A stretch of 64,000 nucleotides of DNA from positions 66,860 to 130,859 of the forward strand of contig JAPHSX010000038.1 of assembly GCA_026196575.1 (NCBI GenBank). Direction: 5' to 3'. This document shows, in pieces, positions 8,944-50,215 of the stretch (its first letter is position 1; each line of letters begins with the position of its first letter). A model generated the notes under the pieces. The model saw nothing but the letters and a program-made list of their open reading frames with translations, made no database searches and had not been told where the DNA came from. The DNA is from Gammaproteobacteria bacterium (GTDB lineage: Bacteria; Pseudomonadota; Gammaproteobacteria; Thiohalomonadales; Thiohalomonadaceae). The position numbers and the translations under genes were made by a program.

Positions 8944-9159
8944 TCAGTAAAGACGCTTGGAGCGGTTCTGCTCGCGGAAGGTCTTCTTCTCCTGGCGCTT
9001 GACGGCAGCGGCTTGCTTGCGCTTGCGAACGGCGGTGGGCTTCTCATAGGCCTGGCGACCACGGATCTCGGCCAGGATACCGGCTTTCTCACAGCTGCGC
9101 TTGAAGCGACGCAGGGCGACGTCGAAGGGCTCGTTCTCTTTTACGCGTACGGAAGGCAT
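8944..9159 (-). CDS. rpsU: 30S ribosomal protein S21
   Basis: A 71-residue basic protein starting [20 protein letters not shown] and ending EQNRSKRLY, the full length of bacterial S21. S21 helps the 30S subunit engage mRNA during initiation. The ATG at 9159 is chosen over an in-frame GTG at 9171 because it gives the conserved N-terminus and has AGAGGTG-type pairing upstream. First gene of the rpsU-yqeY-dnaG-rpoD operon. Confidence 0.98.
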
Positions 9160-9222
9160 ATGCCTCTTCACCTCTTTAAAAAATTCAATTGAATTGGCTC
9201 CCCATAGGGTGCGGAACCCGCA

Positions 9223-9260: not shown

Positions 9261-9556
9261 CGACAGGTTGCAGGGCAAGAGCATTATAACTTTGTGTGCG
9301 TCCACTCCCCTGACACCGGGGGCCTCCAAAAAGATATTTTCACCGCAGAGACGCAAAGGCGCAGAGGTGTTCAATAATGTATTTGCACCGATGCTCCCCC
9401 TCACCAGGGTATCAAGCAGCTCTTTGACGCATGGTTTGCCCCAAATCCTCTGCGCCTTTGCGTCTCTGCGGTGAAATGTGTTTTTTGCCTGGTTTTGTCC
9501 CAATATCAATGAACGGCCTCGGGCTTCGCATAATGCTCTTGCCCTGCGACAGGTTG
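9261..9556. mobile_element. MITE-like element with 17-bp terminal inverted repeats and 10-bp target duplication
   Basis: The element itself spans 9271-9546 (276 bp). Its ends are exact 17-bp inverted repeats: CAGGGCAAGAGCATTAT at 9271-9287 and the reverse complement at 9530-9546. They are directly flanked by the 10-bp direct repeat CGACAGGTTG at 9261-9270 and 9547-9556, the expected footprint of transposition. Inside is a second perfect inverted repeat of 30 bp (9338-9367 and 9447-9476). No transposase gene is present, so it would be non-autonomous and moved in trans. Target duplications of about this size occur in the IS4 and ISAs1 families, but the family is not assigned. It sits between the divergent rpsU and tsaD genes. 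Confidence 0.8.
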
Positions 9557-9596
9557 GCACTTGTGCCCCGTGGGGCAAGCGGAGACAATGCGCGCC

Positions 9597-10613
9597 ATGT
9601 TGATATTAGGCATTGAAACCTCCTGCGACGAGACCGGCATCGCCCTCTACCATGGTGAGCGTGGTCTGCTCAGCCACACCCTCTTTAGCCAGGTGGCGAT
9701 GCATAGCGAGTTCGGCGGTGTGGTGCCGGAACTCGCCTCGCGTGACCATGTACACCGCCTGCTGCCGCTGCTCGGTGAGGCGCTGGAGCAGGCGGGGGTG
9801 AGCCGTCGGGAGATCGACGGCGTGGCCTACACCTCGGGTCCGGGGCTGATCGGCGCGTTGCTGGTCGGTGTCTCGATGGGGCGCAGCCTGGCCTGGGCGC
9901 TGGGGGTGCCTGCGGTCGGGGTGCACCATATGGAGGGGCACCTGCTGGCGCCGATGCTGGAGGAGGATCCGCCCGACTTTCCCTTTGTCGCGCTGCTGGT
10001 CTCCGGTGGCCATACCCTGCTGGTGGCGGTGCAGGGGGTGGGGCGCTACACCATCCTTGGCGAGTCGCTGGACGACGCCGCCGGCGAGGCCTTCGACAAG
10101 ACCGCCAAGATGCTGGGACTCGGCTACCCCGGCGGGCCGGTGCTGGCCAAATTGGCGGGGGAGGGACGCCCGGGGCGCTACCGTTTTCCCCGGCCGATGA
10201 CCGATCGCCCCGGCCTTGACTTCAGCTTCTCCGGTCTCAAGACCTTTGCACTGACCACCTGGCAGCAGAGTGATCAGAGCGCGCAGGCACAGGCCGATAT
10301 CGCCCTTGCCTTTCAGGAGGCGGTGGTCGATACCCTGGCCATCAAGTGCAAGCGCGCCCTGCAACAGAGCGGCCTCAAGCGGCTGGTGGTGGCGGGTGGC
10401 GTGAGTGCCAACAAAGGGTTGCGAGAGCGTCTGGCGCTGCTGGGGGAGGAGCTGGGGGCCAAGGTCTACTATCCGCGTCCCGAGTTTTGCACCGACAACG
10501 GCGCGATGATCGCCTATGCCGGTTACCTGCGGTTAAAGGCGGGGCAGGGCGTGCCGCTCGCCTTTGGTGCCACACCACGCTGGCCCATCGAGGCGCTGCC
10601 GCCGCTCGATTGA
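9597..10613 (+). CDS. tsaD: tRNA N6-threonylcarbamoyladenosine synthase subunit TsaD
   Basis: A 338-residue ASKHA-fold protein that, with TsaB and TsaE, transfers the threonylcarbamoyl group to A37 of ANN-decoding tRNAs. The start [19 protein letters not shown] matches the family; a slightly longer start at 9588 is possible. The metal-binding VGVHHMEGH motif is at about residues 107-115. Further signatures are [42 protein letters not shown] and [13 protein letters not shown]. The length is normal. The gene is divergent from rpsU, a common arrangement in gammaproteobacteria, and convergent with plsY with only 7 bases between stops. Confidence 0.98.
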
Positions 10614-48444: not shown

Positions 48445-48454
48445 ATTAAATATC

Positions 48455-48588
48455 CACCGCAAAGGCGCAAAGTACGCAAAGGTTGTGAATGCGAAATAAC
48501 AGAGATTCAGTGAGCCATCTGCCCAATGCCTCTGCGGATGAGCAAAACACTTCAATTATTTCTTTGCGCTCTTCGCGCCTTTGCGGTG
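48455..48588. repeat. Palindromic intergenic repeat, copy between gatA and gatB
   Basis: Arms 48455-48482 and 48561-48588 are inverted repeats matching at about 24 of 28 positions, based on CACCGCAAAGGCG. They resemble the 30-bp arms inside the MITE at 9338-9476 and the copy at 50068-50193. No flanking terminal repeats or target duplication were found for this copy. Confidence 0.65.
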
Positions 48589-48604
48589 AATAAGGGGTTT
48601 TAAA

Positions 48605-50059
<1,455 letters not shown>

Positions 50060-50067
50060 AAACCATT

Positions 50068-50193
50068 CACCGCGAAGGACGCGAAGGAGCGCAAGCAAAC
50101 CTGGTAAGGGTGCTCGCCTCAAACCAACTGGATGTTGGCTTTGAGGGATTATACTTTTCGAGTTACTTCGCGTTCCTTTGCGACCTTTGCGGT
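50068..50193. repeat. Palindromic intergenic repeat, copy between gatB and hslO
   Basis: Arms starting at 50068 (CACCGCGAAGGACGCGAAGG) and ending at 50193 are imperfect inverted repeats of about 28 bp, related to the copies at 48455 and within the MITE. The spacer differs in sequence from the other copies. It lies just after the gatB stop, so it may also act as a terminator-like structure. Confidence 0.6.
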
Positions 50194-50215
50194 TTCATTA
50201 TTAAATCGGTAAACC

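Follow-up and report, generated by a model that had tools for sequence, protein, structure and literature searches.

What occupies the divergent gap between rpsU and tsaD, and is it one mobile element or two? The window analysed here, a stretch of 64,000 nt from a draft genome of the Thiohalomonadaceae (2.74 Mb in 74 contigs), carries in this gap a 276-bp palindromic element (9271-9546) with a further palindrome inside it. We consider it very probable that these are two elements, one nested in the other, namely an ISAs1-type MITE that carries a gene-less hairpin of a palindromic family associated with GxxExxY genes. The relevant features of the window are the following:

8944-9171, minus strand: rpsU (75 aa), promoter candidate TTGCAT (9251-9246) / TAGAAT (9228-9223), spacer 17, outside the MITE
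9261-9270, plus strand: target site duplication, left copy CGACAGGTTG, identical at 10/10 positions to 9547-9556
9271-9546, no strand: ISAs1-type MITE of 276 bp, non-autonomous and without a gene, as judged by ends, duplication, copies and empty sites
9271-9287, plus strand: left terminal inverted repeat CAGGGCAAGAGCATTAT, exact complement of 9530-9546
9288-9337, plus strand: left subterminal part of the MITE, with 88% identity of its outer part to the copy on contig C46
9338-9367, plus strand: left arm of the inner hairpin, TTTCACCGCAGAG-A-CGCAAAG-G-CGCAGAGG, exact complement of 9447-9476
9368-9446, no strand: hairpin loop of 79 bp, resembling the loop of the copy on contig C46 in inverted orientation
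9447-9476, minus strand: right arm of the inner hairpin, complement of the left arm and a match to the arm pattern
9477-9529, plus strand: right subterminal part of the MITE, containing motif TTGATATTGGG (reverse strand), common to the G009 and G010 copies
9530-9546, minus strand: right terminal inverted repeat, matching the left end
9547-9556, plus strand: target site duplication, right copy, exact match to the left copy
9597-10613, plus strand: tsaD, promoter candidate TTGTGC (9561-9566) / GACAAT (9584-9589), spacer 17, outside the MITE
48454-48590, no strand: solo GxxExxY-type hairpin in the gatA/gatB gap; site empty in G001, different hairpins there in G008, G009 and G010
50066-50197, no strand: solo GxxExxY-type hairpin in the gatB/hslO gap, recognised by the arm pattern

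The repeats reported in the earlier note are all exact: the 17-bp terminal inverted repeats (17/17), the 10-bp target duplication and the 30-bp inner inverted repeat (30/30, or 41 nt at 88% when extended). When the complete window was screened for inverted repeats (minimum 12 bp) bordered immediately by direct repeats (minimum 8 bp), this element was the sole match; 40 simulated sequences gave none. The single-stranded fold of the element has an energy 10 SD under that of shuffles, and an Rfam scan of the region gave no match.

The outer structure has relatives both within the genome and beyond it. The leftmost 26 bp of the MITE had no exact match in the contigs, and the second copy that the earlier note proposed to look for was found on contig C46 (107596-107901, 306 bp). 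It shares the left end, with one mismatch, shows the ends CGGGGC.../CAGGGC... within the flanks ATGGCCGTGG/ATGGCCGTGA, and is bordered by an imperfect duplication (9/10) of ATGGCCGTG[G/A]. Two other genomes of the same bacterial family, from another genus, contain elements with the same ends, one of 287 bp in G010 with a 9-bp duplication (ATGGCATAA) and one of 268 bp in G009, likewise with 9 bp (TCATGGCAT); the subterminal parts are homologous among the copies. Moreover, G015 from the same family harbours an intact ISAs1-family IS of 1220 bp with the ends CAGGGCAAGATCATTAT / CAGGGCAAGAGCATTTT and a transposase of 371 residues (PF13808 and PF01609). The left end of the window element differs by 0-1 mismatches from those of the G009 and G010 MITEs and of this IS. 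An autonomous IS with shared ends, as sought by the earlier note, thus exists intact and with near-identical ends in G015, and the window's own 74-contig draft yielded only relics, all truncated or frameshifted, with no intact ISAs1 transposase; one decayed relic retains the left end CAGGGCAAGATC. Most of the genomes are draft assemblies, in which a missing gene or a missing intact transposase is weak evidence.

The element is absent from the rpsU-tsaD gap of G001 (same genus), G009 and G010, and the single copy of CGACAGGTTG that had been predicted for an empty site is not visible, with the intergenic DNA of these three genomes too diverged to display one intact target copy. The ISAs1 family duplicates 8-10 bp of its target, and the duplications found here have this length, with 10 bp for the window element, 9-10 bp for the C46 copy and 9 bp for those of G009 and G010. 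Together, the second copy, the copies in another genus, the empty sites and the matching IS bear out the reading as a MITE, and we assign 9271-9546 to the ISAs1 family.

It had also been suggested that the insertion may affect the rpsU operon and tsaD, which our analysis does not support: the MITE sits between the two candidate promoters, both of which lie outside it. Their hexamers were picked by eye and were not flagged by a consensus promoter scan; AAAATGCAA at the candidate rpsU promoter is conserved in three relatives, and the candidate tsaD promoter is partially conserved in relatives. An effect of the MITE on rpsU or tsaD is possible.

The inner palindrome is of a different nature. It consists of multiple units (CCGCAGAG-A-CGCAAAG-G-CGCAGAG), with (T)TCACC and CRCRRAG units in triplicate, and both of its arms fit the strict arm pattern ACCRCRRAGN{1,3}CRCRRAGN{1,3}CRCRRAG, i.e. 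ACC followed by three CRCRRAG units with spacers of 1-3 nt. The same arms occur without MITE ends at approximately ten further sites of the window's own genome and in many other genomes, and such solo hairpins are abundant in some relatives. Thus the 'second palindrome layer' of the earlier note is present, but it belongs to a different and far more widespread family of elements, two further members of which in the window itself (48454-48590 and 50066-50197) had been overlooked. Translated fragments of the repeat, e.g. AQRRRG and APLRLCGE, show up in spurious ORFs of the window.

Inner arms are found in three of the four MITE copies, in near-symmetric placement; the G009 copy has the MITE ends and lacks such arms. 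The orientation of the hairpin core is opposite in the two genomic copies. The window element matches C46:107780-107831 on the minus strand (90% over 52 nt), and the similarity between the window loop and the reverse complement of the C46 loop was reached in 3 of 5000 shuffles. The idea that the two genomic copies have unrelated loops was therefore rejected, since the loops match once one of them is reverse-complemented. The loop of the G010 copy is unrelated.

The CRCRRAG hairpins are located in narrow intra-operon gaps (gatA/gatB, leuD/leuB, ahcY/metF and upstream of hemE); genes next to hairpins, such as leuD, gatA, ahcY, metF, hemE and hslO, were named from translated flanks, not from database annotation. 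Several of these sites are empty in G001, a genome with neither arms nor the gene, and some of the same gaps are filled by different hairpins in G008, G009 and G010. Arms agree within an element at 0.905, versus 0.794 for arms shuffled among elements (sd 0.0145), and neither the loops nor the arm subtypes are related from genus to genus. Exact hairpin ends and a target duplication were sought at orthologous sites, but the relatives (70-84% identical, with scrambled intergenic DNA) have diverged too far there for either to be defined. Two solo hairpins of the window's own genome (L051:1780-1990 on C46 and L052:1870-2080 on C58) have loops that are 86% identical and an outward inverted repeat extension (TACTCGCCCC.GAAAA / TTTTGTTTTGAGG.CGAGTA), possibly another carrier element. 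The loop of a further one (L284:1018-1151 on C4) holds an additional palindrome, GTAGGATGGGCAAAG...CTTTGCCCATCCTAC, so that one repeat is nested in another.

A possible association of CRCRRAG repeats with genes for GxxExxY (TIGR04256/PF13366, PD-(D/E)XK) was put to the test by scoring the bracketing of genes by inverted flanks against the 99th percentile of random intervals. This limit was exceeded at 42 of 48 proteobacterial GxxExxY loci and, among named loci of many phyla, at 64 of the 78 that could be tested; the arms closely flank the reading frame and are, with few exceptions, of a single pattern. These loci had been collected by searching for the gene and not the arms; the arms-first direction was tested through co-occurrence. 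Among 200 genomes, the strict arm pattern was present in 41 (reversed-pattern control: 0), with gene and arms together in 28, arms only in 13, the gene only in four and neither in 155. The same count within one well-sampled family, which limits the effect of shared ancestry and does not remove it, gave 26, 12, 0 and 9 (p=2e-4), so the gene occurred without arms in no genome. Some of the 13 genomes with arms and no detected gene contain more than 100 arms (G175); here, either the gene was lost or the arms were moved by another factor.

The window's own genome encodes a GxxExxY gene (C14:18325-18672; locus L288, C14:18288-18715) in the leuD/leuB gap, inside ACCGCAAAGGACGCGAAGG arms, and the arm subtype around this gene also exists as solo hairpins in the same genome. 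The leuD/leuB gap of G003, G009 and G010 holds gene-less hairpins with other arm subtypes. A hairpin in G008 (L111) has intact arms around only the last ~41 codons of a GxxExxY gene and is, read from its sequence, an internal-deletion intermediate that links gene-bearing and gene-less hairpins. Plasmids gave four GxxExxY matches, and both of the two loci examined among them have CRCRRAG-like arms, one on a Bacteroides plasmid with the gene beside radA and one on a Sphingomonas replicon in the fabD/fabG gap. The latter (L320, Sphingomonas parapaucimobilis NZ_CP155749.1, 479891-486259) places GxxExxY between two genes of the fatty-acid operon, within CGCGAAG-type arms. A single query against phages gave no match, and no description of the repeat or of its link to GxxExxY was found in open-licence full texts, an absence that carries little weight. 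Genes of PF05635 (IVP) in the same genomes exceeded the same 99th-percentile limit in 10 of 18 cases with other arm units, so that hairpins around small genes are a wider phenomenon. Seven IVP loci (L147, L150, L151, L154, L158, L160, L161) show inverted arrays of short units, e.g. TTCAAGG, AGTGCTA and GGGGCTA.

The structure model of GxxExxY (pLDDT 97) has as its best PDB match Cas4 SSO0001 (4ic1; Z 10.2, rmsd 3.3 over 100 residues), with less close likenesses to other PD-(D/E)XK nucleases and lambda exonuclease. An alignment of 34 sequences shows D66, K78 and Y94 as invariant and E76 and Q90 as near-invariant, as in RecB/Cas4-type nucleases. A sequence search of solved structures gave no match, and PHROGs and PADLOC returned weak matches only (RusA-like and Cas4, respectively). 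GxxExxY thus resembles Cas4/RecB nucleases in its predicted fold and is a putative nuclease; to our knowledge, no activity has been described.

In our preferred explanation, the outer element is an IS of which little but the ends is left; its insertion duplicated 9-10 bp of target DNA, and an ISAs1-type transposase that recognises the CAGGGCAAGAGCATTAT ends may have moved it in trans. The inner 9338-9476 belongs to another palindromic family and is a copy without the gene; in full, a member of this family is a unit of ~400-430 bp with inverted arms of three CRCRRAG units around one gene, GxxExxY. This protein may recognise the folded arms, as a DNA or RNA hairpin, and could drive hairpin copying or homing in trans into tight intergenic gaps, with solo hairpins as its passengers. 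The MITE seems to have acquired such a hairpin and would now act as its carrier. Exchange between the inverted arms could flip the loop, and the opposite core orientation in the two MITE copies is what would be expected if this were so. We give an even chance to the broader proposal that CRCRRAG hairpins and GxxExxY form one undescribed class of mobile elements in many phyla, in which a nuclease spreads its own arms, with gene-less passengers in intra-operon gaps and further carriage by unrelated MITEs.

One alternative is that the whole 276 bp is a plain ISAs1 MITE whose inner palindrome did not arise separately but is just a second inverted repeat of the MITE. The near-symmetric arms in three of four copies would fit this, but the solo arms away from MITE ends, the armless G009 copy and the same arm type around GxxExxY genes in many phyla all speak against it and make it very improbable. 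In another reading, the hairpins are host regulatory RNA structures under selection that stabilise mRNA within operons or serve as processing sites, a role proposed for REP, with GxxExxY as a passenger. Their narrow intra-operon positions, the maintained complementarity of the arms and the different hairpins at the same sites in three relatives are consistent with such a role; however, the closest relative, G001, lacks hairpins at several of these sites, loops and arm subtypes are unrelated across genera, and the bracketing of one gene family in many phyla would be left unexplained. We regard host selection as an unlikely origin of the hairpins.

Alternatively, hairpins and GxxExxY might constitute an RNA-level element like the 23S rRNA intervening sequences and their IVP, inserted via RNA or reverse transcription instead of a DNA nuclease. 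The IVP genes of the same genomes also lie within inverted arms of short units, the architecture of one ~120-residue gene in a hairpin is shared, and insertion within operons would be tolerable if the RNA hairpin were processed. On the other hand, the predicted fold of GxxExxY is that of the DNA nucleases Cas4 and lambda exonuclease, and the RNA route seems to us rather doubtful. The MITE with its GxxExxY-type hairpin remains our preferred reading. The MITE by itself is ordinary; through its inner palindrome, a bacterial repeat that is very common and has had no explanation is connected with a single uncharacterised gene family, GxxExxY. If this link is causal, it would provide a function for both and reveal a nuclease-driven analogue of REPIN/RAYT based on neither HUH nor DDE enzymes. 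A direct test of the link would need no more than a single small protein and an arm sequence of 25 bp.

Among known systems, ISAs1 insertion sequences and IS-derived MITEs resemble the outer element, which has CAGGG... ends, 9-10-bp duplications and no gene, and whose ends recur in an intact ISAs1-family IS from the same bacterial family; unlike these, it encloses a palindrome that belongs to a different repeat family and faces opposite ways in the two copies of this genome. The 23S rRNA intervening sequences likewise consist of a ~120-residue gene in an imperfect palindrome, and PF05635 genes of the same genomes have inverted arms, but these arms are built of TTCAAGG, AGGGGCTA and similar units and GxxExxY is another protein family; moreover, PF05635 had no match in the window's genome, and the window element occupies the rpsU-tsaD gap, not 23S rRNA. 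With Cas4/RecB-family nucleases, GxxExxY shares the predicted fold and the conserved D66, E76, K78, Q90 and Y94, whereas it has only ~124 residues and is encoded within a hairpin. REPIN/RAYT systems (TnpA_REP with inverted REP pairs) are similar in combining a one-gene element in inverted repeats with many solo pairs between genes, yet the enzyme here is a Cas4-like PD-(D/E)XK protein (PF13366/TIGR04256) instead of a Y1 HUH transposase, and the arms are three tandem CRCRRAG units instead of REP.
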